DNA from: a virus
IMG/VR virus record: IMGVR_UViG_3300028920_000001
Coordinates: 250,001 to 314,000 of that record
Reading direction: 5' to 3' (one strand)
Length of the DNA stretch: 64,000 bases
Part shown: piece by piece, positions 35,788 through 62,214 of the stretch
Layout: every line of letters starts with the position of its first letter
Position numbering within the stretch: position 1 is the stretch's first letter
Notes under the pieces: generated by a model
Databases searched by the model: none
Told to the model about the DNA's origin: nothing
The model's input: only the letters and a program-made list of their open reading frames with translations
Position numbers and translations under genes: made by a program

Positions 35788-36060
35788 ATGAGTAAATTTA
35801 ATATCGAGGATCTTCGGTTTTCTTCCAGTTCAATTGATGATTTTTTCAAGAGTCCTGAACCCAGGGTTCATACTTCTTCGACGGTTGGGAAGGTCCGGGT
35901 TTCAGGACTTCATGAATTAGCCGGATTTAGTTTTATAGCTGAAGATAAACTGGTTAGGACTAGTAAACAAGACTTTTGGCAATTAGGTCAAGATGATGAT
36001 GGGTATTTCATCGAACGTTTGGTCAGTGACGATGATGGGCCGATCAAGGAAGAAGAATAA
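35788..36060 (+). CDS. hypothetical acidic protein, 90 aa
   Basis: Ser-rich N-terminus (L-R-F-S-S-S-S-I-D-D-F-F) and acidic tail. AGGGAGGACAAAT before the ATG is one of the best ribosome sites in the region. It overlaps the next gene (TAATG). Likely a minor virion or assembly protein by position. Confidence 0.5.
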   Translation: MSKFNIEDLRFSSSSIDDFFKSPEPRVHTSSTVGKVRVSGLHELAGFSFIAEDKLVRTSKQDFWQLGQDDDGYFIERLVSDDDGPIKEEE

Positions 36061-37184
36061 TGGACCTAGATAAGATTGCCCGTCGGATTAGTTCTTCTGG
36101 TCGCATTCGTACGGCTGGACGAATTGAATTCGTCCGTGATCAAGGTCCTCTTCGTCGTGATTTGCGTGCCAAGGGGTTTTCATTTAGCTCCGATACCTTA
36201 AAGGATTTAGCTAAAGTATTATGGGCTGCTGAACGAGCTCATAGTTATGGAATGGCTGCTCTAAGATTATTTTCTAAGACCCCTGCCTCTGAGATCAGTC
36301 CTGATGGATTATTGGGTGGCCGTGGGTATATTCAGCAAATTAAAGAGATGCGTTCTAATCTTTCTCAAGCTGTTGAAGTTCTATCTGCATTTTCAGATAC
36401 TATGCATGATGAAGTAAATGCAGATCATTGGGCTGGTGCTAGTGAATCAGAACCTGAAATTGAAGAGATTGTAGAACAAGCTGATGCTGTGAAAGCTGCC
36501 CCCGAGCAGTACGTTGAGGAGCAATTTGAACAGCAAGTTCCGGAAGCATCTGAAGATTTTAATCAGTTAACAAATCCTTCTCCGGAAGAAATGAATCCGG
36601 TAGTAGAAAATTCTGGCCCTCCGGATTGGGATTGGGGTCAAGAAGAGACTCAGATTCAGTCTTCGGAGAAAGCAATCCACCGCCCAAAAGATCCAAAGGA
36701 CTCTGATTTAAGAGTCCTGAAGGGCCAAATATCGAGCTCATCAATTCCAGTAGAGACTTTGCCTGGTCCCAGAGTGAAGCATATTGGGCCGGGTGAGGGT
36801 GATCAGGAATTCGGATATTATGCCGATGATGATGAGCGGCCAAGTGATGATCCTATCGGAGAAGGATTTCGTTTTCTAGAAGAAGTATATCAGGATTGGG
36901 ACATTGGAAAGGGTGGGGTGACTGGTTATGATAATCCCACCGATGGTGATACATCAAAATTTAAGCAATCTGCTCTTAAATTGGCAAATTATTCATGGCT
37001 TCCTGGTTCTCGAAATGAAAAATTAATGCCATACTATGATCCTAATGCTACTGATGAAGATGTTGAATGGATGAGAGCTCATGATCAGCCTGAGCCTCCG
37101 AAAAGCTTAGCGCCTCCTCCTGAAAATATGTTGCCTGATAAATTATGGGAGGCTCGACGTAATGCCGACATCTCTTCCGACTGA
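36060..37184 (+). CDS. virion-associated protein with leader motif, 374 aa
   Basis: Begins M-D-L-D-K-I-A-R-R-I-S-S-S-G-R, a copy of the N-terminal motif shared by proteins near the capsid genes. A helical domain (D-L-A-K-V-L-W-A-A-E-R-A-H) follows, then a long acidic, Pro- and Asp-rich region predicted to be disordered. It overlaps its neighbours (TAATG in front, 23 bases behind). Function unknown; internal virion protein is the working guess. Confidence 0.55.
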   Translation: MDLDKIARRISSSGRIRTAGRIEFVRDQGPLRRDLRAKGFSFSSDTLKDLAKVLWAAERAHSYGMAALRLFSKTPASEISPDGLLGGRGYIQQIKEMRSNLSQAVEVLSAFSDTMHDEVNADHWAGASESEPEIEEIVEQADAVKAAPEQYVEEQFEQQVPEASEDFNQLTNPSPEEMNPVVENSGPPDWDWGQEETQIQSSEKAIHRPKDPKDSDLRVLKGQISSSSIPVETLPGPRVKHIGPGEGDQEFGYYADDDERPSDDPIGEGFRFLEEVYQDWDIGKGGVTGYDNPTDGDTSKFKQSALKLANYSWLPGSRNEKLMPYYDPNATDEDVEWMRAHDQPEPPKSLAPPPENMLPDKLWEARRNADISSD

Positions 37185-38289
37185 AGATGCGGCTGATAAG
37201 GCTGTTAAAGATTTTGGAATTGGAACATATGATTCCGAATCAGATGATACTAGTGTAAAAGGCGAAGATACTGAAGGTAAAACTAAAAAAGGGAAGTCTC
37301 TTCCGGATGGAGGCGGATCTTTAGCTCCGGATCCAGAGGAGTGGCTTAGTTATCCTTATCCGGTATTAGATTATAGTAAATCATATTCTGCAAATACTCT
37401 TCCCGGGGATCTAGATCGTCCTCCGCGTGGACGGAGGCCAGCGGATGATACTAAAAATGTAGTTGCTGATGAATGGGATATTGAAGATTATGATGAGCCG
37501 GAAGAAGCTCTCCCAGAGGGAGATACTGGGAATAGGCATTCTGAATTACCAAGTGATAAGAGTAATCCATCATCCCGTGCTGACTATTATGATAAATTAA
37601 CCATCGGAAAGGCTATTAAGGATATTTGGCCAAGTGAAGATTCTGGGGCCTATGTAAGTCAAGATAAGGATGAATCTGAAACTGAAAAAGATGAAGAATC
37701 CCTTCCTACACCAGCTAAAAATGAAGTTTGTATGGATGATTTTTTAGGAGCCTTAGGAAATATTTGGTCTGGATTTGTAATGGATGATTTATCCAATCCT
37801 ACAGGGTTCCCATCAGAAGATTTTAGTGAAGAAGTGGATTATATGGATACTGATTCCGGCGGAAGTCTTCAACCATTTGGATATGGACCAATGGCTAGCA
37901 ATAATTTAAATGTGAGAATATCAACTGATTTGGAGTTAGTTGGAGAATTGACTAAAGAATTCTTGAGCAAACATGGGAAGAAGAACATTACGCGTCGTAA
38001 TGTTCTTGCTTTTTTGCAAGAAAAATCTCTACCTCAATATTTGGCATCTGATATTGTTCGGTGTATGAAGCTACGTCATAAAGTTCATATCCCTGATGTC
38101 ATGGACACTTTTCCGGTTAAGACTGCATCATCGGAAGAAATGAGTTTATATCGAATTCGTGATCAACTTGTTGGATATGAGATTCAAAATATGACCGATC
38201 CAACAACGGCCGCTAAATTTCGTCGATGTGCTGCCGATTTATCTCAAATCATAGCGCATCTAGAGAAGCTCGAGGATAGAAATGGCTGA
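37162..38289 (+). CDS. hypothetical head-region protein, 375 aa
   Basis: The N-terminal ~220 residues are acidic and low-complexity (E-D-Y-D-E-P-E-E-A-L). The C-terminal ~130 form a helical domain (L-V-G-E-L-T-K-E-F-L-S-K-H-G-K-K-N-I-T-R-R-N-V). GGGAGG lies ten bases before ATG 37162. It overlaps the next gene by eight bases. Probably structural. Confidence 0.5.
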   Translation: MPTSLPTEDAADKAVKDFGIGTYDSESDDTSVKGEDTEGKTKKGKSLPDGGGSLAPDPEEWLSYPYPVLDYSKSYSANTLPGDLDRPPRGRRPADDTKNVVADEWDIEDYDEPEEALPEGDTGNRHSELPSDKSNPSSRADYYDKLTIGKAIKDIWPSEDSGAYVSQDKDESETEKDEESLPTPAKNEVCMDDFLGALGNIWSGFVMDDLSNPTGFPSEDFSEEVDYMDTDSGGSLQPFGYGPMASNNLNVRISTDLELVGELTKEFLSKHGKKNITRRNVLAFLQEKSLPQYLASDIVRCMKLRHKVHIPDVMDTFPVKTASSEEMSLYRIRDQLVGYEIQNMTDPTTAAKFRRCAADLSQIIAHLEKLEDRNG

Positions 38290-40210: not shown

Positions 40211-40247
40211 TTAAATATTAATTAAATATTTTAGGTAGGGTTAGAGT

Positions 40248-40853
40248 ATGGATGATGGCCCTACCGATGATCAGGATAAGGGTAACGGCGACGGCAAAGG
40301 GAAATTAATAACTTTCCCTGGTGGTAAGAAAGTTGACCCTGAAGAAGTTGGCCTGGATAGTATAGTAGGCCAAACTGGGGATATTCCTACTCCAGATATT
40401 TTAGATCCAGTGTACTTAGATAAAGAATTGCGGGAGCGAGTTGAATATGTAAAGAAACAGGCTCTAGTTCAGGCTATCACTGAAAAAAAGAGTACTATTG
40501 ACACTATCGATGCTGTTTTGGTTGAAATAGCGGAAGAATTAGCTCATCTTAAATTTGAAAGAAGAAAAGCTGCTAAAGAAGGTAAAAATACTGCGAGCTA
40601 TACCATTGGTAGAATAGGTTCTCTGACTAAATTAGCTGATTTATTATTGAAGAAGAAAGAATCTATGATGCAAGAGGAACTGGACCTGAAATCGTCCAGA
40701 TTCCAGGCAGTTTTTAGAGTTTGGATGGAATTTTTCCATGATTCGATGGAAAAATCTGGTATTTCTCCAGAAGTAATTGATGTTATATTTCAACAGATGA
40801 AAGCTGATATGGTTGATTGGGAAAGAAAAATGTCTACTGCCGGTATTGAATAA
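40248..40853 (+). CDS. hypothetical protein, possible terminase small subunit, 201 aa
   Basis: A Gly/Asp-rich N-terminus precedes a long helical region (I-D-T-I-D-A-V-L-V-E-I-A-E-E-L-A-H-L and L-T-K-L-A-D-L-L-L-K-K-K). The position directly upstream of the large terminase, with a TAATG overlap, is where small subunits often sit, but no DNA-binding motif is visible. Treat the role as inference. Confidence 0.45.
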   Translation: MDDGPTDDQDKGNGDGKGKLITFPGGKKVDPEEVGLDSIVGQTGDIPTPDILDPVYLDKELRERVEYVKKQALVQAITEKKSTIDTIDAVLVEIAEELAHLKFERRKAAKEGKNTASYTIGRIGSLTKLADLLLKKKESMMQEELDLKSSRFQAVFRVWMEFFHDSMEKSGISPEVIDVIFQQMKADMVDWERKMSTAGIE

Positions 40854-42799
40854 TGCCTAGTATTGAGAAACAAGAAAAAAGTAAATTAACTGGACTTGTT
40901 GACGATTTTCTAATTAAAAGAAAGAAAATTAGTTCTGGAAATGATAGTGATGATAGTACTACATTTCTTACTATTATTGATTTTATCGAACGATTTAAAT
41001 TACTTCCATATGGTTTATTTCCAGTTCAAAAGTTCATATTGAAATTATATTATAATATTCCATTAGATGATAAGTTACCTGGAGACGAGCGGGATAGAAT
41101 CTATGTAACTCCGAATTTTAGATCCAATAAACGGGTCTATATGACGGAAGTTAAATACCTCGAATATTTATATAGTCAAGGTCGCTGCAATATAAAAGAG
41201 CAGGGTGATATTCGATATGAATTAATTTTAGTATTGGGACGACGAAGTGGGAAAAGTGCACTAGCTTCTTTAATCGCAGCTTATGAACTTTATAAATTAT
41301 TAGCTCGTGATTGTCCTCAGAAATTCTATGGGATGCCAGTTTCCAGTGAAATTCGAGTATTAGATGTTGCAAATGACAAAGACCAAGCTGAGATTGTTTA
41401 CCAAGATATTGCTGGATACGTAGAAAGTGTTGATTATTTTAGAACGTCGTTGGCTAATCATACGACACAATTTATGAAATTCAAAACTCCCCATGATAAA
41501 AGAAAATTTGGTGACGAAGGGCGCTCAACATTAACAGCTACATTCAAGAGCTCAATTGCTAAAGGTCTTCGTGGTCGTGGTGTTATTTGTTTTATTCTGG
41601 ATGAATTTGCATTCTTCTTAAATGAAAGCGGTAAGTCTAATGCGCGTGAAGTTTACCGAGCTATTACTCCATCGCTTAAGCAATTTACTCCAAAAGATTC
41701 TAAAGACAAACGAAAAGCTATCGCAAAATCTGAAGGTAGAACTGTTGTTATTTCTTCCCCTGATGCAAAAGATGGATTCTTTTATCATCTTTACCAACTT
41801 TCTTTGACTAAGGATGTTGCTGCGTCGAATATGCTAATGATTCAGGCTCCGACGTGGGAAGTTAATCCTACATTGAGCCAGCAAGATTATGAAATTGAAT
41901 ATGCTAAAGATCCTCGGGCATTTATTACCGAGTATGGAGCTCAATTTTCTGATCGAGTTCGTGGTTGGATAGAAGATGCGAAGGACTTACAAGATTGCAT
42001 TATTGATGATTTAAAGCCATTGGTACGTGGTAATCCTCGAGAGCCCTTCTGGGCCGGGTTGGACTTCGGAATTTCGAAGGATGGTACTGCTGTTGCTCTA
42101 ACTCATTTGTTGAATGGAAGGATTACTCTTGGTTATCATGAAGCTTGGTATGCTGGAAAAAACTGGAAAGAGACTAATCCTCATCTTACTAATCCCTTAG
42201 TTCCGTATGCGCGAACTCTTCAAGACGTTAAACGACTCGATATTGATGAGATAGCTAACTGGTTATTTGTCTTATCTAAACGATTTTATATTTTGAAAGG
42301 AGTATTTGACCAATGGGCCGGTCCAGTATTTGAACAAAAATTACATAAAACTGGACTTCAGCAATTTGAAATGCGTCATTTCAGTACTGCCGATAGTTCT
42401 AAAGTATACCAAAACGCCAAGATGTTCATGTACACCACTCAGTTGGCATTTTATGATTATCCGATTCCTAAGCAAGTTATTCAGGAAGATGGCCTAGTTC
42501 TACACTCTCCTTTAATTGCTGAAATGTTAGAACTTCAAGCTACTTCAGCGGGGAAAAATTTAATCTCTGTAGAGGCTCCAAACATTCCAGGAAAGCATGA
42601 TGATAATTCCGATGCTGTGATGAGAAGTATTTATCTAGCTGCTGAGTATATTTCTGAAAATCCTGGAATTTTGGATATTAGTCATATTGAAGTAATGCCG
42701 ATGGCTCGCAAAAATTATGGTTATCGGCATTTCCATCGGGCTCGAACCAGGCTCCATGGCCCTCCTCCGCCTGAAAGGCGTGTCTTTAGGCGGGGATAA
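40853..42799 (+). CDS. terL: terminase large subunit (packaging ATPase/nuclease)
   Basis: Pumps DNA into the prohead and cuts it. Walker A L-V-L-G-R-R-S-G-K-S at residues 127-136; Walker B I-C-F-I-L-D-E at 245-251; coupling motif V-V-I-S-S-P. The C-terminal RNase-H-like nuclease shows G-L-D-F-G-I-S-K-D-G-T, F-D-Q-W-A-G and H-D-D-N-S-D-A with the metal-binding acidic residues. 648 residues is typical. It probably interacts with the portal (43496-45319). Confidence 0.9.
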   Translation: MPSIEKQEKSKLTGLVDDFLIKRKKISSGNDSDDSTTFLTIIDFIERFKLLPYGLFPVQKFILKLYYNIPLDDKLPGDERDRIYVTPNFRSNKRVYMTEVKYLEYLYSQGRCNIKEQGDIRYELILVLGRRSGKSALASLIAAYELYKLLARDCPQKFYGMPVSSEIRVLDVANDKDQAEIVYQDIAGYVESVDYFRTSLANHTTQFMKFKTPHDKRKFGDEGRSTLTATFKSSIAKGLRGRGVICFILDEFAFFLNESGKSNAREVYRAITPSLKQFTPKDSKDKRKAIAKSEGRTVVISSPDAKDGFFYHLYQLSLTKDVAASNMLMIQAPTWEVNPTLSQQDYEIEYAKDPRAFITEYGAQFSDRVRGWIEDAKDLQDCIIDDLKPLVRGNPREPFWAGLDFGISKDGTAVALTHLLNGRITLGYHEAWYAGKNWKETNPHLTNPLVPYARTLQDVKRLDIDEIANWLFVLSKRFYILKGVFDQWAGPVFEQKLHKTGLQQFEMRHFSTADSSKVYQNAKMFMYTTQLAFYDYPIPKQVIQEDGLVLHSPLIAEMLELQATSAGKNLISVEAPNIPGKHDDNSDAVMRSIYLAAEYISENPGILDISHIEVMPMARKNYGYRHFHRARTRLHGPPPPERRVFRRG

Positions 42800-43490: not shown

Positions 43491-43495
43491 AAACC

Positions 43496-45319
43496 ATGGC
43501 AGCTAAGAAGAACGGGAATGGACGAGTTAGAACCGGTCAAATTCCGGTTCAGCACGTTAATATCCAGAAGGTTCCTTCCAAAAAGCTAACTAAATTAGAA
43601 AGGCAAGCCCGGAGAGAAGCTGCTCAATCTATTCGTGTGGCTGCTACCTGTGGTCCAATTGGTGGATCTGGATTAGGAAGCGGGGGTTTTGGTGGTTATG
43701 GGAATGCCGATATTGGATTAGCTAATTCCAATTTTTACAGTCCTCAGTTATCAACTGACTTTTTAGAGTTACCTCAATCTGAGCGTGAAAAACGCGAGTT
43801 ATTTAGATTTTGGTATACAACTCATCCAATCGTTGGGGCATCAATTGATTTTCATACTGATGTCCCGATGTCAAAAATTCGGTTGTCTCTGCCGAAGGGG
43901 AAAGATCACAAAAGAAATAAGCAGATCTTGCATTACTATCAAGAAATGTGCAGGCGACTGCGGCTTTTCCAAGTTCTCTACGATGCCACTCATGAATATT
44001 GGTTACATGGAAATGTGTTTATTTTCTGTGAAGACCAAGATATGGCACCAGAACTTCCTGATTCTATCTTCGTGAAAGAAGTGGAAGAAGAAATTGGTGA
44101 AGTTGATGCATTAGGAAACCCGACGGTTCGTAAAGAAAAGAAACAAGTAGAGAAATCTGAAAAAGAAAGAATGGATGCCATTCACGAATATGTGGCTGAT
44201 AAATATCAGGGATGGCAGCGTCTTCAAATTTTGCCGCCAGAGCAAGTTAAACTAGAAGTTTTTCAGTATACTAATAAAGTTAATATGGAACTTATCCCGA
44301 GCGAAAAAGATCGTTTGGTGGTATTGAGAGCTGAAGATCAAGGGGATCCGGAAGCTAGAAGAATTGCTGATGATATTCCAGAACAAATTAAAGAGAATTT
44401 ACTTAACGGTCAGCCTATTCCATTAAATACTAGTCCTTACGAAGATTATATTTGTTCTTCGTTTTGTTATCATTTATCGCACAAAAAATCATCTTATGAT
44501 GATCGTGGAATTTCAATTTTAGAGCGTTGTCTTCGTACTCTTCTCTATCAAGATAAACTTCGTCAAGCCCAGACTTCGATTGCCTCCCGTGCAATGACAC
44601 CAAAGCGCATTGTGTGGGCAGACAAAATGTCTCAAACAGATGTGGAAGATCTGCGAGATCAGGTTGATCAAGCTCTGATTGATCCGGATTTCACTATTAT
44701 TACTAATTTTGAGCTTCATTGGGATGAGATTGGAGCTCGAGATCGTCTTTTAGATTTAGGTACTGAATACGAGATTACAAATAAATTATTGTTTATCGGC
44801 CTTCGAATTACTGAGGCTATGTTAACAGGAGAAAGTACCTATTCCGGGGAGCGTATTCATCTGGACGTGATGAATACAATGTATTTGCTTTACCGTGAGA
44901 CAATAGCGGAATTCGTTGAGGAGCAGATTTTTGCACCGGTAGCCGAAAAGAAAGGTTTTTGGGAAATTGATGAATATGGGAATCGGGTTCTTCTTTATCC
45001 GAAGCTTCAGTTTACCCGACTGGCTCTTCGAGATAATGCTGAACTTCAGGATTTCATGTTTAATTTATATCAAAAAGGCTCATTGCCTATTTCATATATT
45101 TATGAACTTTTGAACATTGATGTTGATGACGCCCATTCGGAACTTCAGAAGGATGTATTTACTCTGAAGGATTCTCAGATGAATGAATTGGTCAGGAACC
45201 TTCTAGGTGCGGCCGGGGAAAAGCTTTTGGATGAGACCGATGTGATTGATAAGATAGTAAAAAGTCTTGGTCTTAAACATGAAAAGAAAGAAGGAGATCG
45301 TTTTGGTAAGGAAGAATAA
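43496..45319 (+). CDS. portal protein
   Basis: Forms the dodecameric DNA gate. 607 residues with the typical order: a disordered basic/Gly-rich start, P-I-V-G-A-S-I-D-F-H-T-D, the wing region with Y-W-L-H-G-N-V-F-I, an insert (residues ~190-235) rich in Glu/Lys, a clip-like section with R-G-I-S-I-L-E-R-C-L-R-T-L, and a stem-crown-like helical end (F-V-E-E-Q-I-F-A-P-V-A). Placement between terminase and the later protease and capsid genes fits exactly. Confidence 0.8.
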   Translation: MAAKKNGNGRVRTGQIPVQHVNIQKVPSKKLTKLERQARREAAQSIRVAATCGPIGGSGLGSGGFGGYGNADIGLANSNFYSPQLSTDFLELPQSEREKRELFRFWYTTHPIVGASIDFHTDVPMSKIRLSLPKGKDHKRNKQILHYYQEMCRRLRLFQVLYDATHEYWLHGNVFIFCEDQDMAPELPDSIFVKEVEEEIGEVDALGNPTVRKEKKQVEKSEKERMDAIHEYVADKYQGWQRLQILPPEQVKLEVFQYTNKVNMELIPSEKDRLVVLRAEDQGDPEARRIADDIPEQIKENLLNGQPIPLNTSPYEDYICSSFCYHLSHKKSSYDDRGISILERCLRTLLYQDKLRQAQTSIASRAMTPKRIVWADKMSQTDVEDLRDQVDQALIDPDFTIITNFELHWDEIGARDRLLDLGTEYEITNKLLFIGLRITEAMLTGESTYSGERIHLDVMNTMYLLYRETIAEFVEEQIFAPVAEKKGFWEIDEYGNRVLLYPKLQFTRLALRDNAELQDFMFNLYQKGSLPISYIYELLNIDVDDAHSELQKDVFTLKDSQMNELVRNLLGAAGEKLLDETDVIDKIVKSLGLKHEKKEGDRFGKEE

Positions 45320-45347: not shown

Positions 45348-47582
45348 ATGTTGCATCAAGGTGACAGCTCTTTGAGTCCTGCTGAAAAGGAGGATCAAGA
45401 GATTGAACATCGAATGAAGAGTATTAAGGAACGTCCTCATTCTAGAAAGTACAGATCTCGGCGTCCTGATCGTAGTAAACGTAGACAAAGGATGAAAATT
45501 GAAGATTCAGATATCCAAGCTCCTGTAAAGGCGGATCCAGATTTGTCAAAGATGGCTGCACGTATAGCAGTTGAACCCTTTGAAGATATTAGAGAACTCT
45601 TTAATAAGCGTGCTCAGTCGATTTTCAGGGCTTTATCTGAACTTTCTACTCCTTTAGCTGATGCATTTCATTCTGAAATGCATGAAAAATTCATAGATGT
45701 TTGGGATAATACTAAGAAACAACAACTACTATTACAGGAAATGGGAGAATTTAAAGATAAAATTAAGGGTGAAGTAAAAAAATACGGTAGGATATTAGGA
45801 AAAGCTGAACCGGCAGCTGTGGCAAGAATTATTGCTGATAATTGGCCTGATAAATCAGATTGGCAAACTCGAGCGGCCATAATTGGTGGAATAAGAAAAG
45901 CAGCAGACGATTCTAAGCTTCCTGAAGCTATTAAAGTCCCTTTTCTACGTCAAGACATTCCTAATGTATTAGCAGACAATAAAGCAATAAAGGCAATTCT
46001 TAAATCTAATGTGAAAAAATCCGGGGCTGATGAAAATGATTTATTCAGATTTGCTCAGTTAGTGGCTGCTTATCAAGTTTTATCTAAAAATCCGGATAAA
46101 ATTTCTACTGATCAATTAATGGCAGATGTTAAAAAATTGGCAGGATCATTAGACGAGCAGGTTTCTGAAGTTGTTGATCTTAATAACATTATGAATATTT
46201 GGACTAGTGCTTTAGGTCAGATTAAAGCCAAAGATACGAATATAGATTATAAACCAAATGATTATGATAAATTGTTGAAAAATCTGAGCAGTTTTTTTGA
46301 TCAAAGTAAATATGTGAATCCTGAACCTACCATGAAGGAGATGGAAAAACTATTGAAAGAAGAATTTAAAGATATTCCACCTGAAATGGAAGCAATGTTT
46401 AAGGGGTTCAAACGTGCAGCAACTTCTAATGAAACTCCAAGGATTAGGATAATGGCTAAAAAAGTCGTTGACTATGCTAAAGTGGCCGGTCGGGTTGCTA
46501 CCTATCATGGAATAATTGATCAAAGGGGCAATCCTACAGATCCTATTAATACCGGGTGGAAATCGTACGATAAAAGATATTTCGGTGAAGATAATTATAA
46601 ATCAATTGTTAAATATGCCAAAGAATTGCTAACTCAAGATTGGTTTAAATATGGATGGGGAGAGAAAAAGAGCGATGCTAGCCTTAGAGCCGCTCTTGAT
46701 GTAGCTATCTATGTGGGAGATTCCACACTTCATCAATCTAAGATTGATTCAGAGACATATAATATGCTCTTGAATCGATTGGCGGGTTGGGGATATGATT
46801 CATTTTCGGAGACTATTGTCTTTGAATCCGGAAAAGGCACCAAGAGGAGCGCTTCAATGAAGGCAGAAATCCAAAATTTAGTTCGGATTGCTAATGATAT
46901 CCGTCAGACTAATCCTACGGTGGCCTTTGAGATGTTAAAGAACATCAGAGGACTTACTGCTGGGCTTGGTATTGAGCCTGAGCTTGAGCCTGAGCCCCCT
47001 ACTACTTCTGGTGCTAAAGAAGATATTTCTAAGGCAATTGAAGAAACCATTTCTGAAATGTCCGGAGAGGAACCTGACAAGGTAGCTCAGGCTATTGCTG
47101 ATATTCTCGAAAAAGGCTTCGAGAAGATGCGTCCCAAGTCCCCTGAAGACCTTCAAACAGGCCTGGAAGAGCTCGTTGAAGCTGCTGGAGAGGTTATGGG
47201 CGGTCAGGCAGCAGTCGGATCTACTCTTGGGTACTTGGTTAGGGTGGCCTATAAAGCCCCTTCTCTTCGTCCCTTAATTCTGCCGGTGGTCGCGGCAGCT
47301 AAAAAAGGTAAGGGTAAAGGTAAAGCCCAGCCTAAGGGTAAAGGTAAAGCCCAGCCTAAGGGTAAAGGTAAGGCCCAGCCTAAGGGTAAAGGTAAAGCCC
47401 AGCCTAAGGGTAAAGGTAAAGCCCCACCATTTGGTGGTAAGAAGGCCCCACCATTTGGTGGTAAGAAGGCCCCACCATTTGGTAAGAAGGACGAAGAGGA
47501 AAAGAAGACCGCTAAAGGTAAAAAGACTTCTAAAGGTAAGAAGCGTCGGTCTTCTATTACCGCCACAGATCTGGAATGGTGA
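45348..47582 (+). CDS. large virion-associated protein with Lys/Gly-rich repeat tail
   Basis: 744 residues. A basic N-terminus (S-R-R-P-D-R-S-K-R-R-Q-R-M-K) is followed at residue ~65 by D-L-S-K-M-A-A-R-I-A, an internal copy of the leader motif. A long helical body leads to a C-terminal tail of G-K-G-K-A-Q-P-K (four copies) and A-P-P-F-G-G-K-K (about three copies). It ends in more Lys-rich sequence. The tail is histone-H1-like in composition and may bind DNA. An ejected or internal head protein is a reasonable guess. Confidence 0.6.
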   Translation: MLHQGDSSLSPAEKEDQEIEHRMKSIKERPHSRKYRSRRPDRSKRRQRMKIEDSDIQAPVKADPDLSKMAARIAVEPFEDIRELFNKRAQSIFRALSELSTPLADAFHSEMHEKFIDVWDNTKKQQLLLQEMGEFKDKIKGEVKKYGRILGKAEPAAVARIIADNWPDKSDWQTRAAIIGGIRKAADDSKLPEAIKVPFLRQDIPNVLADNKAIKAILKSNVKKSGADENDLFRFAQLVAAYQVLSKNPDKISTDQLMADVKKLAGSLDEQVSEVVDLNNIMNIWTSALGQIKAKDTNIDYKPNDYDKLLKNLSSFFDQSKYVNPEPTMKEMEKLLKEEFKDIPPEMEAMFKGFKRAATSNETPRIRIMAKKVVDYAKVAGRVATYHGIIDQRGNPTDPINTGWKSYDKRYFGEDNYKSIVKYAKELLTQDWFKYGWGEKKSDASLRAALDVAIYVGDSTLHQSKIDSETYNMLLNRLAGWGYDSFSETIVFESGKGTKRSASMKAEIQNLVRIANDIRQTNPTVAFEMLKNIRGLTAGLGIEPELEPEPPTTSGAKEDISKAIEETISEMSGEEPDKVAQAIADILEKGFEKMRPKSPEDLQTGLEELVEAAGEVMGGQAAVGSTLGYLVRVAYKAPSLRPLILPVVAAAKKGKGKGKAQPKGKGKAQPKGKGKAQPKGKGKAQPKGKGKAPPFGGKKAPPFGGKKAPPFGKKDEEEKKTAKGKKTSKGKKRRSSITATDLEW
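47310..47480 (+). repeat. tandem 24-bp repeats encoding the Lys/Gly tail
   Basis: Four near-identical 24-bp units (AAGGGTAAAGGTAAAGCCCA...) from 47310 to 47405 are followed by a different 24-bp unit (GCCCCACCATTTGGTGGTAA...) repeated about three times, the last truncated. Units differ by single bases such as AAA/AAG. The array is in frame and will expand or contract by eight residues at a time. Confidence 0.85.
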
Positions 47583-49464: not shown

Positions 49465-52224
49465 ATGGCCTTCAAGCGTAAAGCAAATGCTATAGTTTCA
49501 AAATCTGACATCCATTTCGAAGAATGGATGGATGAAATTCGTAAAAATAATGAAGGGGCCGTTCCTAAGGATTACGTAGGACGAGTTGCTAAAGACGTTC
49601 TTCGTAAATGTGACCCGAATAAATATTTACTGTCTCATGCCACTATAGTCGCATCAGTTGATGTGTATGCCCCTCAGGGCGTCAAGACTGGCAAGATGAC
49701 AGATAATCGGGGAATGGAAATTGAGGTTAAGTGGCCTGAATATCGAATTAAGCCTGAATGTCAAGAATTGATCAATAATAATGGAGATGCTTGGGAAAGA
49801 TCTTTACTGTTATCGACATATCGGACCTTTATTGGGGCTCCGAACTATTTAGAGCATATACAAATCCCAGAATTATCCAAGGGATTTATTGTTGATGCGA
49901 TTGCTCGAGACCTTGGTAATACTTGTTATATTGATATTCTGGTTGGTACTGATCGCAAACATAATGTACTTATTCAGGATATTTTATCTAACAAGTTAAA
50001 TGCGATGAGTATGGGGTGCTTTGTTGCTGGTACTAAAGTTACTTTAGCAGATGGCTCCATGATTTCTATTGAAGATATTAGACCTGACATGCATGTTTTC
50101 TCTCAAAAGGGGAATGCTTGTCGAGTAAAGAATTTACAAATCCGAGAAAATCGATGGGGGATGTGTGAAATTAAGACAACTGGTCATTTTAAGTTGTCTT
50201 GCACTGATAATCATAAATGGTATGCAGTTCCTAGAGAAGAGGTTGAATATCGATCTACTTATAGGAAGAATCAAGTTCCGATAAATAAAGACTATGGATT
50301 TGAATATCGTGAAGCTGGTGATTTGAAAGTTGGTGATATAGTCGCTTTCCCGATTCCTCAAAAGGTTGTTGAGACTGATATATCAGAATCTGATGCTAGG
50401 TTAATCGGTATTTTTGCTGCTGATGGGTGGAAGTTTGAAAATACTCATGATTCTACTATTGGTTTAGGTTTTTGTTTGAATAGATTTGAATCTCAAACGA
50501 TTAATGACGTTGTTAATAAGATAGAACAAATCATGTGGTTGTCTGGGGAAAACCGGATGACTGCAAATGGGCATTCTTGTAATCGTTCGGTTAATTCTTC
50601 GATTCGGAGAAATGCTTGTTATTTAACATCAACTAGTCGTAAAGCTAGAAATCTGATTGATGAATTTGTGCATGGCAGAACAGCCAAGACTAAGATTTTT
50701 GATGAAGCGGTTTTGTGCTGGCCTAAGAATTTACAAAAGGCTCTTTTATCAGGTTATGTTGATGGGGATGGATCGGTTTCAACGGCTAAAAGGAAAACTA
50801 AGAATCTTCATATTAGTAGCAGAAATCCTGATTTGATTAATCAACTGAGGTTAATTGCAGCCCGTTGTGGATTGATTACTACTATAAGCAAAGCGAAAAG
50901 AAAAGGTACTAAATTAGTTCCCGGTGGAGCTGGGGTTGACTATCAGCTTCGATTTATGAATAATGGTGTTAATCAAATCAATGCTAATAAACTAAATGAT
51001 ATTGAAATTAAAGAAAGTCTAGTTGGTTTAAATAAACGATGGATCACTGATAAATATATTTATACTACTGTTGAATCAATTCGAAGATTTGATTATGATG
51101 GATTTGTATATGATATGGAGGTTGAGGGAGACCATTCATATACAGTGAATGGTATCGGGGTGTCTAATTGTGTGTCGTTATTTACGATTTGCACCCATTG
51201 TGGCAATGTAGCTATTGATGATACTCAATTTTGTAGTCATGTTGCATATGATGGAAAGAACTCTGAATTTATCGATGAGAATGGCCAGAAGCATCGACTA
51301 GCAGAATTGATTGGTCACACTACAGTTCCTAATAGTAATCAATTTATCGAGGCTTCTTGGGTTCGAGCTCCAGCATTTTCTGGTGCCCAGCGTAGGAATG
51401 TGTTAAACGCTGAGATGCCAACTATCGCTACTAAGATTGAAGCTGCCGGTAAGATTTATGAAATTAAGTGCAGCCAGGATGAATTGGAAGGTATTTTAAG
51501 AGCCGCGTCGATTGATCCGAAGTTAAATGTGTTGCATACAGCCCAAGATGAAGAGGATGATGCAGCCGGATCTGCTTTAGATGAGCTTATGGGTGGTGGG
51601 GACGAAGAAGCAAAGCCGGAAGATAAAGATGAAGAGGTTAAAGCTGAGGCTGAAAAAGATAAAGCTGAAGCTGAAACTGAAGGTGGGGAAGAAACTCCGG
51701 CAGAACCGGCTAAGCCCAAGATTGATAAATTGGTAGAAAAAGCTCAGGAACAGCTATTACAGACGATTGTTAATGATTTGAGTGAACGTTTAGCTCCTAA
51801 ACCTGAAGATGTTGGGGTTGCAATTCCCGGTATTGAGGAAGCTAGTTATAATGATAATCTAGTTCGAGCATCTCAATTTGATAAGAGGCTCCAATCTATA
51901 TTTAAGGATTATCCCAAGATTGTCAAATGGGCATCTCGGGTTAATAGATTGATTCATCTCGGTGGTCGAGATGCTATCAAGAGAGCAGGATATACTCCTT
52001 CAGATCTGATAGTTTTTTCATGGATAAATGATACTGTTAGATCTAAGGTTTATCCACCGGGTCTATATAAACTTGCCATGAAGATTGGTCCAATCAATTC
52101 TTTCCCTAGCGAAACTTCTTATTTCGCTGCGTGTCAAATTGATTTGAACCGTCCTCTGGTCCCTGGCGAGAAGAGATTCCTTCGGCAGAAGGGTCGAATC
52201 GCGTCGCTGTCCACCAAATTTTAA
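49465..52224 (+). CDS. prohead-protease-like protein carrying an intein
   Basis: The extein (535 aa without the intein) resembles head maturation proteases of large phages. A-P-N-Y-L-E-H131 would carry the catalytic His, and I-L-V-G-T-D-R-K-H is followed by A-M-S182-M-G, the catalytic Ser context. After the intein come C-V-S-L-F-T-I-C-T-H-C-G and F-C-S-H, a Cys/His site. An acidic linker (residues ~690-750) and a helical end follow, which may act as fused scaffold. The intein is at residues 185-568. The role is to cut scaffold and target peptides in the prohead (family knowledge); the family call is by eye. Confidence 0.6.
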   Translation: MAFKRKANAIVSKSDIHFEEWMDEIRKNNEGAVPKDYVGRVAKDVLRKCDPNKYLLSHATIVASVDVYAPQGVKTGKMTDNRGMEIEVKWPEYRIKPECQELINNNGDAWERSLLLSTYRTFIGAPNYLEHIQIPELSKGFIVDAIARDLGNTCYIDILVGTDRKHNVLIQDILSNKLNAMSMGCFVAGTKVTLADGSMISIEDIRPDMHVFSQKGNACRVKNLQIRENRWGMCEIKTTGHFKLSCTDNHKWYAVPREEVEYRSTYRKNQVPINKDYGFEYREAGDLKVGDIVAFPIPQKVVETDISESDARLIGIFAADGWKFENTHDSTIGLGFCLNRFESQTINDVVNKIEQIMWLSGENRMTANGHSCNRSVNSSIRRNACYLTSTSRKARNLIDEFVHGRTAKTKIFDEAVLCWPKNLQKALLSGYVDGDGSVSTAKRKTKNLHISSRNPDLINQLRLIAARCGLITTISKAKRKGTKLVPGGAGVDYQLRFMNNGVNQINANKLNDIEIKESLVGLNKRWITDKYIYTTVESIRRFDYDGFVYDMEVEGDHSYTVNGIGVSNCVSLFTICTHCGNVAIDDTQFCSHVAYDGKNSEFIDENGQKHRLAELIGHTTVPNSNQFIEASWVRAPAFSGAQRRNVLNAEMPTIATKIEAAGKIYEIKCSQDELEGILRAASIDPKLNVLHTAQDEEDDAAGSALDELMGGGDEEAKPEDKDEEVKAEAEKDKAEAETEGGEETPAEPAKPKIDKLVEKAQEQLLQTIVNDLSERLAPKPEDVGVAIPGIEEASYNDNLVRASQFDKRLQSIFKDYPKIVKWASRVNRLIHLGGRDAIKRAGYTPSDLIVFSWINDTVRSKVYPPGLYKLAMKIGPINSFPSETSYFAACQIDLNRPLVPGEKRFLRQKGRIASLSTKF
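50017..51168 (+). mobile_element. intein with LAGLIDADG endonuclease, 384 aa
   Basis: Splice junctions: Cys185 opens with C-F-V-A-G-T-K-V-T-L-A-D-G (block A), block B is C-T-D-N-H-K-W-Y, and the end is V-Y-D-M-E-V-E-G-D-H-S-Y-T-V-N-G-I-G-V-S-N followed by Cys +1. The penultimate residue is Ser where His is usual. Two endonuclease helices are present: A-R-L-I-G-I-F-A-A-D-G-W and A-L-L-S-G-Y-V-D-G-D-G. It is inserted straight after the S-M-G motif of the host protein. Confidence 0.92.
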
Positions 52225-54456: not shown

Positions 54457-55350
54457 ATGGCTAACCCTTACGGCGTTCAGGTTGTTGACAACACGATCAA
54501 GGAGAGGATCGCTGAGAAGTGGATCAGCACGTCTCCTGGTCGCAAGCGCATTGCCGCTTCAATGATCCAACCGCTCCGCGAGCGGAGGGATTACTCATCT
54601 GTTGGACGTAAGACCTTCTTGGTCGAGCAGATTCCTGATGGAGCTCTCGCGATTTACGACAAGGATCCGGACGTTACGGCGTACGTGATCGGTGAAGAGG
54701 GTAACAGCATCACGGCCGTAATGAAGCCGCGTCGCGTTATCTTCCCGTTGTTCGAGATTGCGGCTCTCCCCAAGGCTCCTCTGACTCAGATCAAGGAGCG
54801 TCGGTACGACCTGCTCAAGCGTATGCAGGACCTCGGTAAGGCTCAGGTCCAGGCTGCTGAGGACGATCGCGTTTTCAGCATCATGGATGCGATTGCCATT
54901 AACGGGTTCGATTCGCTTGCGGGTCAGACCAACCCGGATATTCCGGTGGTGGCGCCGATTTCGCCGGCCATCCTTGCGGATGCGTTCGCCGAGATCGAGT
55001 TCCACGATCTGCGTGTTGCTCGCGTTTACATGAACGCGAAGGATTACGCAGACATCCGGAAGTTCGGCCGCGACGTGCTCGACATCGAGAGTCAGGCCGT
55101 CCTGTGGAAGACTGGAATGATGGCTACTGGTTGGAACGCCCAGTTCATCGTTTCCCGTCTCGTGCCGCAGGGTGTGGTCTACTGTTGCTGTGAGCCCGAG
55201 ATGTTCGGACGGATTCCGGTTCGTACCGAGCTCACGGTTCTGAGCGCGGATAACCCTGAGGAACGTACCATTGGTTTCTCGATGTTCGAGAATCTGGGCA
55301 TCGGCGCCTATAATCCTAGGGGTCTGGTGCGCCTCATTGTGACGCGGTAA
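54457..55350 (+). CDS. major capsid protein
   Basis: 297 residues with an HK97-like order: an N-terminal helix (I-K-E-R-I-A-E-K-W-I), a long E-loop-like section (D-Y-S-S-V-G-R-K-T-F-L-V-E-Q-I-P-D-G-A), a spine-type helix (L-L-K-R-M-Q-D-L-G-K-A-Q-V-Q-A-A-E-D) and the P/A-domain end (R-T-I-G-F-S-M-F-E-N-L-G-I-G). Codon use is the most G/C-biased of the window. A terminator hairpin follows its stop. The short length suggests that any scaffold domain is a separate gene. Confidence 0.75.
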   Translation: MANPYGVQVVDNTIKERIAEKWISTSPGRKRIAASMIQPLRERRDYSSVGRKTFLVEQIPDGALAIYDKDPDVTAYVIGEEGNSITAVMKPRRVIFPLFEIAALPKAPLTQIKERRYDLLKRMQDLGKAQVQAAEDDRVFSIMDAIAINGFDSLAGQTNPDIPVVAPISPAILADAFAEIEFHDLRVARVYMNAKDYADIRKFGRDVLDIESQAVLWKTGMMATGWNAQFIVSRLVPQGVVYCCCEPEMFGRIPVRTELTVLSADNPEERTIGFSMFENLGIGAYNPRGLVRLIVTR

Positions 55351-55475: not shown

Positions 55476-55480
55476 TATTA

Positions 55481-55751: not shown

Positions 55752-55756
55752 CTATC

Positions 55757-56302
55757 ATGAAAGTTGGGGAATTAATTTCTGAGCTTCAAAAATTTGATTC
55801 TGAAGCTGAAGTAGGTTGTGGTCTTTCCAAGCTTTCAGGATGGGCTCAGAAAATTGATGATGTTTTAATGTCTGAAGAGGGCATTGTTTTTATTAATATG
55901 GGGCGTGAAACTATTGGTGAAAATGAATTAACGCTTGCGTCTACCAAAGTAAATCTTTCTAAAATTGCTTCGAGAATTGCCGCTGTTGAAGGATTGGAAG
56001 ATCCTTGGACTGATATTTCAGAAGAAGTTAAGCGGATTCTTGAAAGTAAAGGCGCAGATCTTGAAGAAGATCAACGTGCTGCAGAACAATTTGTTGATCT
56101 AATTTTGAATTATGCTGATATGAGTCTTGGTCCTCATTCTTCAGAGGATATGGCCCCCATTGAAGCATTTGAGGCCGGGCTGCGTATGAAGCAGCCTGTG
56201 TATCATACAGTAGATCCATTTAATCCTGAAGATGAGCATTATTATTTTGAGGAAGCTTCCAAGGATGCATTTTTAAGGGCTCTTCAGGGAGAAGCTGAGT
56301 GA
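55757..56302 (+). CDS. protein with internal leader motif, 181 aa
   Basis: The first ~64 residues form a small domain (V-G-E-L-I-S-E-L-Q-K-F-D-S-E-A-E-V). They are followed by V-N-L-S-K-I-A-S-R-I-A-A-V-E at ~65-78, the leader motif found at the N-terminus of the next six proteins, and then an acidic helical domain (E-E-V-K-R-I-L-E-S-K-G-A). This looks like a fusion of a small gene with a leader-motif gene. Its TGA overlaps the next ATG (TGATG). Confidence 0.6.
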   Translation: MKVGELISELQKFDSEAEVGCGLSKLSGWAQKIDDVLMSEEGIVFINMGRETIGENELTLASTKVNLSKIASRIAAVEGLEDPWTDISEEVKRILESKGADLEEDQRAAEQFVDLILNYADMSLGPHSSEDMAPIEAFEAGLRMKQPVYHTVDPFNPEDEHYYFEEASKDAFLRALQGEAE

Positions 56303-56619
56303 TGAATCTCTCCAAGATTGCCTCGAGAATCGCTGCGGCTAATACTGCATACCGAGTTATTACTGATGAGCCGGTAGGCATTACTATCGGATTTGAACCT
56401 AAAGGTTTTGAATATGATGAATTTCAAATTCAATCTGATGATGGTGGAGATAATGTTTATATTCAAGAAGATGGAGAAACTTTAATCATTTCTAAGGACC
56501 CTAATCTTAATGGTGAATTTCCTGAACCTGATTTATTAATCTGGCGCACTCCAGATGAATTTAAGAGTTGGATTGCAGAGATGGATGAAGAGGAAGAGAT
56601 GGATGAAAAGGAAGAATAA
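56302..56619 (+). CDS. leader-motif protein 1, 105 aa
   Basis: Starts M-N-L-S-K-I-A-S-R-I-A-A-A-N, then an acidic strand-rich domain (P-V-G-I-T-I-G-F-E-P, E-T-L-I-I-S-K-D-P) and a Glu/Asp tail. Coupled through TGATG to the gene before and TAATG to the gene after. The mature domain resembles none of its leader-bearing neighbours. Confidence 0.6.
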   Translation: MNLSKIASRIAAANTAYRVITDEPVGITIGFEPKGFEYDEFQIQSDDGGDNVYIQEDGETLIISKDPNLNGEFPEPDLLIWRTPDEFKSWIAEMDEEEEMDEKEE

Positions 56620-57305
56620 TGAATCTTTTTAGGATTGCCTCTCGAATAGCCAATATTACTAATTTTAAATCATTTAAATATGATATTGGTGATGAACGAG
56701 CTTTTGGACGGTTAGAATTTGAAGCTGATACCCCTAAGGGTGCTCTTAAGTATGAAGCTAACATAAATACTGATGGTGAGATGGAAGACGAAAAAGCAAT
56801 TTTAGACGGCGAACCTGTTGAATTGGATTTGGGTATTAATCTTCCTCATTATTATAAAATTGACCCTGAGTTTTGGACTTACACGGAGGAAGAGGCGGAA
56901 GAACATAGGGAAGAACAGCCTTCGGATGAAGAAGCTAAACAAATTGTGACCGAAGCTATAGATTATTGGATTAGCTCAGGGGCTGAGACTGGTAAGCCCT
57001 ATCAAGAAGGGGATGAACCTAGGTTGCCTCATAAAGTTTCTGAATCACAAATGAATGCTTGGAATGAGATGAGGAGTCAAATCAATAAAGCTCTTAGATC
57101 TGTTCAAAAGGATGATATCGAAAGTGGAATTGAGTCGCTGGAGGCGGCTAAAGAAAAAGCTTCATCGAATATGATTAAAAAAATTGATCAAGCGATTGAG
57201 ATGGTAAAATCAGATTCTGAAAAATCAAAAGCAGTGATATATAATTTATGGAATCGAGGAGTTGGTGGTTCCATTACAGATTGGATTTCTGAATCTATCG
57301 TATAA
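56619..57305 (+). CDS. leader-motif protein 2, 228 aa
   Basis: Starts M-N-L-F-R-I-A-S-R-I-A-N-I-T. The rest is an acidic protein with a strand-rich front (G-A-L-K-Y-E-A-N-I-N-T-D-G-E) and a helical end (N-K-A-L-R-S-V-Q-K-D-D-I-E-S-G-I-E). The largest family member in the cluster. Coupled by TAATG. Confidence 0.6.
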   Translation: MNLFRIASRIANITNFKSFKYDIGDERAFGRLEFEADTPKGALKYEANINTDGEMEDEKAILDGEPVELDLGINLPHYYKIDPEFWTYTEEEAEEHREEQPSDEEAKQIVTEAIDYWISSGAETGKPYQEGDEPRLPHKVSESQMNAWNEMRSQINKALRSVQKDDIESGIESLEAAKEKASSNMIKKIDQAIEMVKSDSEKSKAVIYNLWNRGVGGSITDWISESIV

Positions 57306-57316
57306 TTGGAGGAATG

Positions 57317-57559: not shown

Positions 57560-57912
57560 TGAATTTTTCTAAGATTGCTTCCCGAATTGCAGCTGATAAA
57601 TCTCAACATACTATTATGTTTGAATTTGCAGAGCCGGATGAAGAAACAATAGTCTATACTGCTGATTTATCAAATGAAGAATTAAATCAACTTAAACAAT
57701 TATTTACGGAGTTACAAGAAAAAGCTGGTGATAATTGGGGAGACACTTTAGCTGCTTGGTCAATTGATTCTGCTGATTCTGCTGAAGCTGTTGAGCATTT
57801 CACTAATTTTCCAGATTTATTAAATGATATCGCTTTAAATTCTCGTTATAATGAAACTGACACTCCTGGTGAATTTTATGGTGGTTCAATCGCTTTATTG
57901 GAAGGAAGATGA
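57559..57912 (+). CDS. leader-motif protein 4, 117 aa
   Basis: Starts M-N-F-S-K-I-A-S-R-I-A-A-D-K, followed by an acidic domain with E-E-L-N-Q-L-K-Q-L-F-T-E-L-Q helix and a C-terminal G-E-F-Y-G-G-S-I-A-L. Coupled on both sides (TAATG, TGATG). Confidence 0.6.
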   Translation: MNFSKIASRIAADKSQHTIMFEFAEPDEETIVYTADLSNEELNQLKQLFTELQEKAGDNWGDTLAAWSIDSADSAEAVEHFTNFPDLLNDIALNSRYNETDTPGEFYGGSIALLEGR

Positions 57913-58229
57913 TGAATTTTTCTAGAATCGCCTCCCGTATTGCTGCCACTGAAGATGAGATAACTCTCCTCAGTAAGCAAGATGTGATTAATCTAGTATC
58001 TCGGACTTTAGAAGTGGAGCCAGCCTCCATCGAATTTAAGACTTTTGAATTTACGGTTCATGGCGGTTCCTATGGCGGCCCAACTTCAATTGGGGCTCGA
58101 GGCGGTGGTGAAGTTGACGGCCGCGATTTTTATTTCTCAATTCAGGGTCATGTTTGGGCCGATAAAGAAGGCGTGAAATACGATCCGAATCCTGACAATA
58201 ATCCTATGGAAATTATGTGGGAGGATTGA
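57912..58229 (+). CDS. leader-motif protein 5, 105 aa
   Basis: Starts M-N-F-S-R-I-A-S-R-I-A-A-T-E. The body has strand-forming, glycine-rich stretches (V-H-G-G-S-Y-G-G-P-T-S-I-G-A-R-G-G-G) and a D-F-Y-F-S-I-Q-G-H-V-W-A element. ATG 57912 is chosen over 57909 for spacing to AGGA. Coupled by TGATG. Confidence 0.6.
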   Translation: MNFSRIASRIAATEDEITLLSKQDVINLVSRTLEVEPASIEFKTFEFTVHGGSYGGPTSIGARGGGEVDGRDFYFSIQGHVWADKEGVKYDPNPDNNPMEIMWED

Positions 58230-58591
58230 TGGACTTTAATAAAATTGCTTCCCGGATTGCTGCAAGGGAGGTAAATATCCAATATGATCTTGATTTTGAT
58301 TGGGATGAAGAGTTATCTTCTGCTCGTCAAAGTGGAACAGTTAGTATTTCTCTTGGTCCAACTGATGAAGAAATTATAGATTACTTAGAAAGTGATGAAG
58401 GTGATTCTATTTTGAATAATCTATCTTCTGATCCAAATGGATATGTTTCATTAGTTCCTCAGACTATCAATGGTCAGTCTGCTGATATTTCCGGTAATGA
58501 TTATTTATCATTCACTAGCAGGGCTATTATAAATTATCTTCAGTCTAATCCTGGAGTTCGGGAATTTAAAGTTACGGGTCTGATTGAGTAG
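58229..58591 (+). CDS. leader-motif protein 6, 120 aa
   Basis: Starts M-D-F-N-K-I-A-S-R-I-A-A-R-E, then an acidic domain (Y-D-L-D-F-D-W-D-E-E-L) with a repeating S-x-x-x-D-E pattern and a strand-rich end. GGGAGG precedes the ATG by four bases. Last of the coupled run; the next gene converges from the other strand. Confidence 0.6.
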   Translation: MDFNKIASRIAAREVNIQYDLDFDWDEELSSARQSGTVSISLGPTDEEIIDYLESDEGDSILNNLSSDPNGYVSLVPQTINGQSADISGNDYLSFTSRAIINYLQSNPGVREFKVTGLIE

Positions 58592-58600
58592 CAAGCATGA

Positions 58601-60287: not shown

Positions 60288-60316
60288 ATTTAGATATACA
60301 ACGGATATCTAAATAT

Positions 60317-60877: not shown

Positions 60878-60891
60878 TGTGATCTCCTTCA

Positions 60892-61029: not shown

Positions 61030-61052
61030 TTGAAACTGTAATTTAAATAATA

Positions 61053-61274: not shown

Positions 61275-61326
61275 GCTTTCAATCTGACTTCACAATTAGG
61301 TTTCCAAGACCTCAAGGAGTTGATTC

Positions 61327-61512: not shown

Positions 61513-61519
61513 GTCCTGC

Positions 61520-61843
61520 ATGGACTTGGCCAGGATTGCCAGGCGATTGGTCATCGCCAGGCAAATCGCGTATGGCGATGAAGGGACTGGTCTAACTTGG
61601 CAGGCGGATTTCCCTGCGACAACTCCTTGTGAGCACTGCGGGGCAGATGCTCGTCTTGCTTTCACCCTATTGGAAGAGGGTGAGGATGACGAATATATTT
61701 GTAATTTACATGATAATGATCACGAAGAAGGTGGGGAAGGTTTTTGGCTTCATGATGCCGGAGCTTTTGCCTTGTATATTTGTACTGATATAGATTGTGT
61801 AACTAAAACGGGTGGCACTACTACACTTTGGAATCAAGCCTGA
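61520..61843 (+). CDS. leader-motif protein with zinc-ribbon features, 107 aa
   Basis: Starts M-D-L-A-R-I-A-R-R-L-V-I-A-R, a variant of the leader motif. The body has C-E-H-C-G-A-D, a Cys/His stretch (Y-I-C-N-L-H-D-N-D-H) and a late Y-I-C-T-D-I-D-C, suggesting metal binding. ATG 61520 is used because the frame upstream is low-complexity Arg/Pro. TGATG links it to the next gene. Confidence 0.55.
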   Translation: MDLARIARRLVIARQIAYGDEGTGLTWQADFPATTPCEHCGADARLAFTLLEEGEDDEYICNLHDNDHEEGGEGFWLHDAGAFALYICTDIDCVTKTGGTTTLWNQA

Positions 61844-62214
61844 TGGATTTTATTAAGATGGCCGCTCGAATTTCAGGGTTAGCTCCTGAATGGTACTCGA
61901 GCGGACGTGAATTTTTAAATAATCAAACACCAATAGATTCTGGTAAAACTCCGGCTGAGGAAAAAGCTGGTACTTCTCTTCCCGGGGATAATCCTGAAGG
62001 CGTCAATCAATACGTAGGAACCAGTCCTCAAAAATTATTAGCTAAACTTCGGACTGAGGACTTGACTTTCGAACAAATAGCCGAAATCGAACATGCTCTT
62101 CAAATTCATTCGGCTTGCACTGGTGATTTTATCGGTACTAAGGCCGAACAAGCATTGGGTTTGAAGCCGCCTAAGCCGCCGGCTCCTAAGCCGCCTCCAT
62201 TTAAACTAACATAA
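61843..62214 (+). CDS. leader-motif protein, 123 aa
   Basis: Starts M-D-F-I-K-M-A-A-R-I-S-G-L-A. A polar body is followed by a helix (T-F-E-Q-I-A-E-I-E-H-A-L) and a Pro/Lys tail (K-P-P-K-P-P-A-P-K-P-P-P). The tail style recalls the 61327 protein. Coupled by TGATG. Confidence 0.55.
   Translation: MDFIKMAARISGLAPEWYSSGREFLNNQTPIDSGKTPAEEKAGTSLPGDNPEGVNQYVGTSPQKLLAKLRTEDLTFEQIAEIEHALQIHSACTGDFIGTKAEQALGLKPPKPPAPKPPPFKLT

Follow-up and report, generated by a model that had tools for sequence, protein, structure and literature searches.

Encapsulins and bacterial microcompartments take up cargo through a short loading helix or peptide that a flexible linker joins to either end (N- or C-terminal) of otherwise unrelated proteins, and the encapsulin shell has the HK97 fold. 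In bacteriophage T4, a short N-terminal peptide, the capsid-targeting sequence (CTS), is present on several different proteins and directs them into the prohead (PMC5694885). Giant phages such as SPN3US and phiKZ load many head proteins, for which N-terminal targeting segments have been proposed (PMC5694885). Here we describe an amphipathic helix of roughly 10 residues that is kept, modular, and terminal on many unrelated proteins of a phage and its relatives. The phage is known from the 426,960-base IMG/VR record IMGVR_UViG_3300028920_000001 (427 kb), and the stretch analyzed, which we call the window, comprises the 64,000 nucleotides at bases 250,001-314,000. On balance, this shared helix (the tag) probably serves as a docking peptide at protein termini, by which its carriers are loaded into the prohead during assembly. 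The titles and abstracts of the open-access literature that we searched describe no common terminal motif of this kind.

A preliminary description of the window had listed nine proteins that open with M[ND][FL]x[KR][IM]AxR[IVL], and all nine copies are present, at 36060, 56302, 56619, 57317, 57559, 57912, 58229, 61520, and 61843. The internal copies listed there were also recovered, at 45540 and at 55952 (the latter preceded by GTA), together with a weaker internal match at 46470; the long motif is absent from the minus strand of the window. Searching the whole record with a degenerate, ATG-anchored DNA pattern of ten residues yielded 14 sites versus 1 for the backward pattern. Five of these sites lie outside the window, two of them on the opposite strand. 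Tagged genes extend beyond the region after the capsid gene: they also occur, in both orientations, near record positions 106-107, 120, 240, 318, and 320 kb.

The anchoring to start codons was assessed in a 164-kb sample of the record, consisting of the window and five 20-kb stretches. A loosened pattern found 20 sites, and at 16 of them the match comes immediately after a start codon (ATG in 14, GTG in 2), compared to 4.7% of in-frame codons that follow ATG, GTG, or TTG. The motif is therefore more frequent at starts than expected; the binomial P of ~2e-18 is biased because the motif was defined in the window and three of the five stretches had been chosen for containing matches. The four sites without a start codon are at 30208, 45540, 46470, and 55952. 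A Shine-Dalgarno-like stretch lies upstream of 8 of 16 tag starts. It is lacking at 61520 and 61843, whose open frames extend 36 and 12 codons further upstream, and for this reason we are unsure of the exact starts of these two genes. Per 1000 residues, the density of the tag core in the sampled part of the record was 1.18 in N-terminal, 0.09 in middle, and 0.13 in C-terminal zones (11, 3, and 1 matches, the capsid protein accounting for one of the 11, compared to 0, 0, and 1 for the core when reversed), indicating no C-terminal use in this part of the genome. Several of the patterns used in this work were shaped after the data were seen.

The variation of third codon positions noted earlier was borne out. 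Comparison of the 17 tag copies in the record gave identities of 0.62, 0.77, and 0.41 for the first, second, and third codon positions, and pairs of the same residue share a codon in 285 of 743 cases (38.4%), versus 41.3% expected from codon usage. Synonymous codons are saturated, so the copies are old or independently kept, and selection acts on the peptide. As described, the proteins differ after the motif: the best E-values from an all-against-all comparison of the bodies were 0.006, between two adjacent tagged genes outside the window, and 0.007, neither of them convincing. Because synonymous codons are saturated and the bodies lack convincing similarity, we conclude that the peptide is what is kept. 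The helix is amphipathic, as had been proposed, with a moment at the 0.93-0.999 quantile of window 11-mers. In 16 tags, mean hydrophobicity is near 0 (-0.39 to 0.18) and net charge is 0 to +2; in all 16, Lys/Arg at residues 5 and 9 interrupts the hydrophobic stretch, and none has the unbroken hydrophobic core of at least seven residues that serves as the criterion for a secretion signal or membrane anchor.

The tag is linked to head genes: it forms the N-terminus of a family of head-cluster proteins, that of 36060, and a copy lies inside a 744-aa protein of the cluster. The genes in question run in the order 36060, terminase (40853), portal (43496), 45348, 47625, protease (49465), 52267, 53749, and capsid (54457), and the prohead protease reported for the window is indeed encoded there. 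The capsid protein shares 73.5% identity with its counterpart in LR745208, a metagenomic phage of 485 kb, 45% with that of Tunturi_5, and 36% with gp27 of Bacillus phage G. Using 80 of at least 576 IMG/VR relatives from the capsid search, we defined clade A (n = 39, capsid identity 85-100%) and clade B (n = 41, near 75%).

For the 36060 family, we fetched the best 80 of 140 confirmed IMG/VR relatives, with both clades represented. Their N-termini often read [DP][LP]x[KR][IV]AxR[IVY], followed after a short stretch by [RK]TAG[EKR][IV]xF. With a fixed pattern, the core was found upstream of [RK]TAG in 42 of the 69 loci that have [RK]TAG (33 of 56 distinct ones), and many of the misses are near-matches by eye; 11 of the 80 loci lack the [RK]TAG motif. 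An AlphaFold2 model was built from an alignment of 39 sequences, the window protein plus 38 of the 80 relatives (L202 and L219 were excluded because of a stop in the translated stretch). In this model, of one protein, the tag is a separate helix (residues 3-12) before a low-confidence linker (13-43), a confident helical domain (44-160), and a mostly low-confidence remainder. Its mean predicted local distance difference test score (pLDDT) is 69 and its predicted template modeling score is 0.43, with block pLDDT values of 75 over residues 1-10 and 57-63 over residues 11-40.

A less biased sample consisted of 16 relatives from the capsid search chosen by record length, three of which had earlier shown a match. 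The ATG-anchored pattern gave 16 matches in 6 of these 16 records versus 0 for the backward control, and 14 of the 16 open frames of at least 78 aa. Sister lineages have other spellings. In LR745208 and the relatives G013 and G015, a different N-terminal module, MxxLRxxLIRLAxxxPxLRxxLLPLL (the LR module), stands on many different proteins; the pattern gave 15 matches in 3 of 17 records (control, 0), and tblastn placed a MTTLRSKLIRLAHxxPxLRPxLLPLLKEA-like module at 11 places in LR745208. This tag looks like an added part because, in one LR-tagged protein, the match of the body to an 88-position PHROG family begins after the tag (E 5.1e-8); the same body also matches cyanophage proteins (E ~1e-3). 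A copy of the LR module is found near the C-terminus of the 45348 protein as well (residues 630-648, 47235-47291).

The loose pattern RVAxR[YF]L gave 48 matches in 14 of 23 records, versus 7 for the control. Thirty of the 48 became loci, which we inspected and sorted: 12 are N-terminal and 8 lie no more than 18 residues from the stop, whereas the remaining 10 either fit neither position or are not credible as genes. Two of the eight C-terminal loci are 36060-family members, and L286 and L292 are related. Within the 36060 family itself, 8 of 20 distinct rows from outside clade A end in a tag-like core when read by eye, four of them in a strict RVAxRYL (21 further such loci were left out of this reading), and one member, L263, lacks the N-terminal core and has the C-terminus VSRVASRYLGEDE. 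Sister lineages therefore use a tag-like core at the N- or extreme C-terminus.

The C-terminus of the window protease, KGRIASLSTKF, also resembles the tag core, although the likeness is suggestive only. Among the C-termini of 33 distinct protease sequences, KG[KR][IV]AS stands near the end in 15 of 18 from clade A; LR745208 has LIRLAS and G013 has MIRLAS, compared to LIRLAH in their tag, and G016-like sequences have EKGRLYALG.

Within the window, the tag carriers are small proteins of unknown kind. None of the ten tagged window proteins matched a family above a Pfam cut-off, and their sole PHROGs match at E < 0.001 is the first domain of the 55757 protein, to families of unknown function; this protein looks like a fusion of two genes. 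For the bodies of the 56619 and 57912 proteins, no IMG/VR relative was found. Recognizable domains follow the tag elsewhere: DUF5661 in this record at ~119.8 kb (E 2.4e-12) and in G004 (1.6e-10), a NIF/HAD phosphatase (1.4e-8), a SinI-like, restriction-enzyme-like endonuclease (4.6e-5, just over the cut-off), and kinase-like proteins (APH, ~1e-3, below the cut-off). Reading by eye, without a family search, the RVAxR[YF]L-tagged proteins of sister phages include two with HExxH-type metalloprotease motifs, as well as a tRNA-nucleotidyltransferase-like and a 2H-phosphoesterase-like protein. The phosphatase, endonuclease, and kinase-like domains would suit delivered factors, and the tagged proteins of relatives include enzymes of kinds that phages inject. 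DUF5661 occurs in 5 of the 24 records searched and is stand-alone and tagged in G000, G001, and G004. In the 619-kb relative G014, it forms the C-terminal part of a 36060-family protein, directly after a tag-like SRIAQKWA, a fusion that ties DUF5661 to the 36060 head-cluster protein.

Other repeated openings were seen among these genomes. A second shared N-terminal module, MxPxxLxxxLRxIAxKIDxSxxPSRELVAxDL (~36 aa), stands at the start of five proteins, three different ones in G001 and two in G003 (L182, L183, L024). On the complement of 3822 in L024 (G003), the tag is expanded in tandem at the beginning of a 53-aa frame (MNFSRIASRIASRIASRIASRIASRIAS). Repetitive frames in G000 (L154/L155, ~333-336 kb; LQAPKVLKDHLELQ...) have the appearance of a repeat gene read in the wrong frame. 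In phage G, MKRLIKK[AS] is a suggestive opening (gp17, gp38, gp126), found with a loose, after-the-fact pattern in 29 of 308 frames. A pair test showed no excess for it, and as a phage G tag it stays a lead only. Behind a MKRLVK opening, phage G gp53 (L039, 31884-33017) has a weak PARP-domain match (E 2.5e-4, below the cut-off), and it is possibly a delivered ADP-ribosyltransferase.

Prohead proteases recognize motif classes that include the T4-type [LI]xE and the phiKZ-type [ASG]xE. In residues 11-40 behind 17 tags, [LI]xE occurs in 4 of 17, at 11.8 per 1000 aa versus 15.4 in the bodies, and [ASG]xE occurs in 15 of 17, at 43.1 versus 23.1, in no fixed place and with an excess that is partly due to tags ending in Ala. 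Thus, among the 17 copies there is no common cleavage site at a fixed place after the helix within residues 11-40; the counts fit removal of the tag by the protease as well as its retention. We rejected TAGE as a post-tag cleavage site since conserved sequence follows it in sister 36060 proteins and since this clade mostly has TAG[KR]IE. Some LR modules of sister phages end in LLKE[AG]. In SPN3US, 42 head proteins are reported to be uncleaved (PMC10052503), and the absence of cleavage would therefore not argue against a location in the head.

The tag shares with the T4 CTS of the internal proteins and Alt that it is a short N-terminal segment on several proteins of a phage that encodes a prohead protease. 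It differs in sequence, in being on many more proteins, in being carried by a head-cluster family, and in lacking a common fixed cleavage site. Furthermore, the CTS is exclusively N-terminal, whereas the tag is N-terminal and internal, and in sister lineages also at the extreme C-terminus. By analogy, the tag may work like the CTS, the nearest known thing, although the cleavage counts and the C-terminal use leave membership in that class not established. Several of the SPN3US and phiKZ propeptides exceed 100 residues and are cleaved by the protease; in contrast, the tag has ~10 residues and one shared motif. The separate amphipathic helix with a flexible linker (one protein modeled, amphipathicity in 16 tags) is like an encapsulation peptide; unlike such peptides, the tag would serve a phage prohead rather than an organelle.

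If loading into the prohead is its role, the helix would bind a component of the prohead core or shell, such as the scaffold, a protein close to the portal, or the capsid protein on its inner side. Any protein bearing the tag would then be enclosed, stay in the virion, and enter the next host with the DNA. The 36060 protein would bind at this site too, as might the C-terminus of the protease. Of the capsid-targeting interpretation given in the preliminary description, a peptide-level sorting tag linked to head genes stands, with encapsidation and co-injection as predictions; tagged genes also lie outside the region after the capsid gene, and sister lineages also place the core at the C-terminus. 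A broader version, which we regard as plausible but would not yet call probable, is that phage G-like huge phages share a position-independent code for prohead loading. Its helix core, [KR][IV]AxR[IVYFW], would work from either end of a protein and be recognized by the head component to which the 36060 protein and the protease are also recruited. KIASRIA, RVASRYL, and the LR module would be dialects of different lineages, and each phage would graft its own onto a rapidly changing repertoire of effector enzymes that travel in the virion and enter the host along with the genome.

Several observations weigh against prohead loading. Tagged genes are also found far from the head genes, and only the position of its gene points to a virion role for the 36060 protein; a Foldseek search of its model against viral structures returned nothing at E < 0.001. 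The spelling of the tag is not universal among relatives: the ATG-anchored pattern had no match in the clade-A relatives G005, G006, and G012, in 7 of 8 clade-B relatives, or in Tunturi_5, LR745208, and phage G, although the last two have homologous capsid proteins. Near the clade-A capsid gene, a broad core is barely denser in N-terminal than in internal positions (0.29 versus 0.22 per 1000 aa; a narrower core, 0.27 versus 0.10). De novo pairwise tests gave no large overall N-terminal excess either in G000 (164 of 39,060 versus 83 of 24,310 pairs), where tagged proteins nevertheless head the list, or in phage G (147 of 45,150 versus 80 of 27,966 pairs). In addition, one of the five DUF5661 records, G008, has the domain untagged, and the parallel between a lineage's protease C-terminus and its tag, though striking, comes from about two independent lineages and could have arisen by chance.

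An amphipathic helix with a net charge of 0 to +2, on small accessory proteins whose genes are scattered over the record, could instead act during infection by docking its carriers on a membrane, the inner one of the host, or on a compartment that the phage forms inside the cell. We consider this unlikely because mean hydrophobicity is near 0 with few bulky hydrophobic residues, and because the tag is the N-terminus of one head-cluster family and also lies inside another head-cluster protein; furthermore, import into the phage nucleus is reportedly independent of terminal signals, according to a review (PMC13282480). Recruitment to a phage-encoded hub other than the head, for example an assembly for the tail, replication, or transcription whose genes happen to lie close to those of the head, seems equally unlikely: a docking helix on a linker would be compatible with any hub, but the families that carry the tag most widely sit among the terminase, portal, protease, and capsid genes.

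Common descent would account for the six tagged genes in tandem at 56302-58591 and for tandem tagged kinase-like paralogues in G003, with the clustered small genes being old tandem duplicates whose bodies diverged while the N-terminus was kept for folding or translation. However, the bodies show no convincing similarity, different domain families carry the tag elsewhere, sister lineages have C-terminal copies, and the saturated codons place the peptide itself under selection; we hold descent to be very improbable. We give almost no credence to a DNA-level or translation-initiation element, such as a recombination hot spot or downstream box. Most copies do begin at a start codon, but third positions vary as randomly as would be expected from codon usage, and relatives have C-terminal copies.

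If prohead loading is correct, tagged proteins should be present in virions. Candidate delivered proteins of uncultured huge phages could then be listed from sequence by a tag at either end, even when their bodies have no known relatives, and the tag would provide a handle on the recruitment of internal proteins by giant capsids and, as a programmable label, a means of loading phage heads of very large size.

Features of the window that bear on the tag and the head gene cluster
Coordinates	Strand	Feature	PHROG match
36060..37184	+	374-aa head-cluster protein; tag MDLDKIARRI, linker with conserved RTAG, helical domain	
40853..42799	+	terminase large subunit	phrog_2, E 1.2e-24
43496..45319	+	portal protein	phrog_16240, E 2.4e-28
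45348..47582	+	744-aa protein between portal and protease genes; internal PDLSKMAARIA (45537-45569), weaker match 46470	
49465..52224	+	head maturation protease with intein-like insertion; C-terminus ...KGRIASLSTKF	
54457..55350	+	major capsid protein, relative of Bacillus phage G gp27	
55757..56302	+	181-aa protein; N-terminal domain, then internal tag VNLSKIASRIAA (55949-55984), then body	phrog_22847/5861 (N-terminal domain)
56302..56619	+	tagged protein MNLSKIASRIAA, 105 aa, body of no known family	
56619..57305	+	tagged protein MNLFRIASRIAN, 228 aa	
57317..57559	+	tagged protein MDFNRIASRVAA, 80 aa	
57559..57912	+	tagged protein MNFSKIASRIAA, 117 aa	
57912..58229	+	tagged protein MNFSRIASRIAA, 105 aa	
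58229..58591	+	tagged protein MDFNKIASRIAA, 120 aa	
61327..61512	+	61-aa protein, largely second shared N-terminal module (MVKPSDVANRLRQIAAAIDNSKSPKRELVA)	
61520..61843	+	tagged protein MDLARIARRLV, 107 aa, start uncertain	
61843..62214	+	tagged protein MDFIKMAARIS, 123 aa, start uncertain	

Some further features were observed in and near the head cluster. Judged by eye, the long insertion in the protease gene (49465-52224) looks like an intein (CFVAGTKVTLADGSMI ... HSYTVNGIGVSNC) that contains LAGLIDADG-like motifs, and the protease frames of several relatives are similarly long (~900-970 aa, versus ~480-590 aa). The 422-aa protein at 52267-53535, between the protease and capsid genes, has four [KR]TA[GSAE] sites, and a short motif akin to these is conserved in the 36060 family. 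Across the head-cluster proteins, [KR]TA[GSAE] occurs 6 times in 6,474 aa versus once in 14,098 aa of other window proteins. Close to the head cluster, the protein at 33181-34827 matches PHROGs of Mom-like DNA modification (residues 369-534) and of HNH/homing endonucleases.

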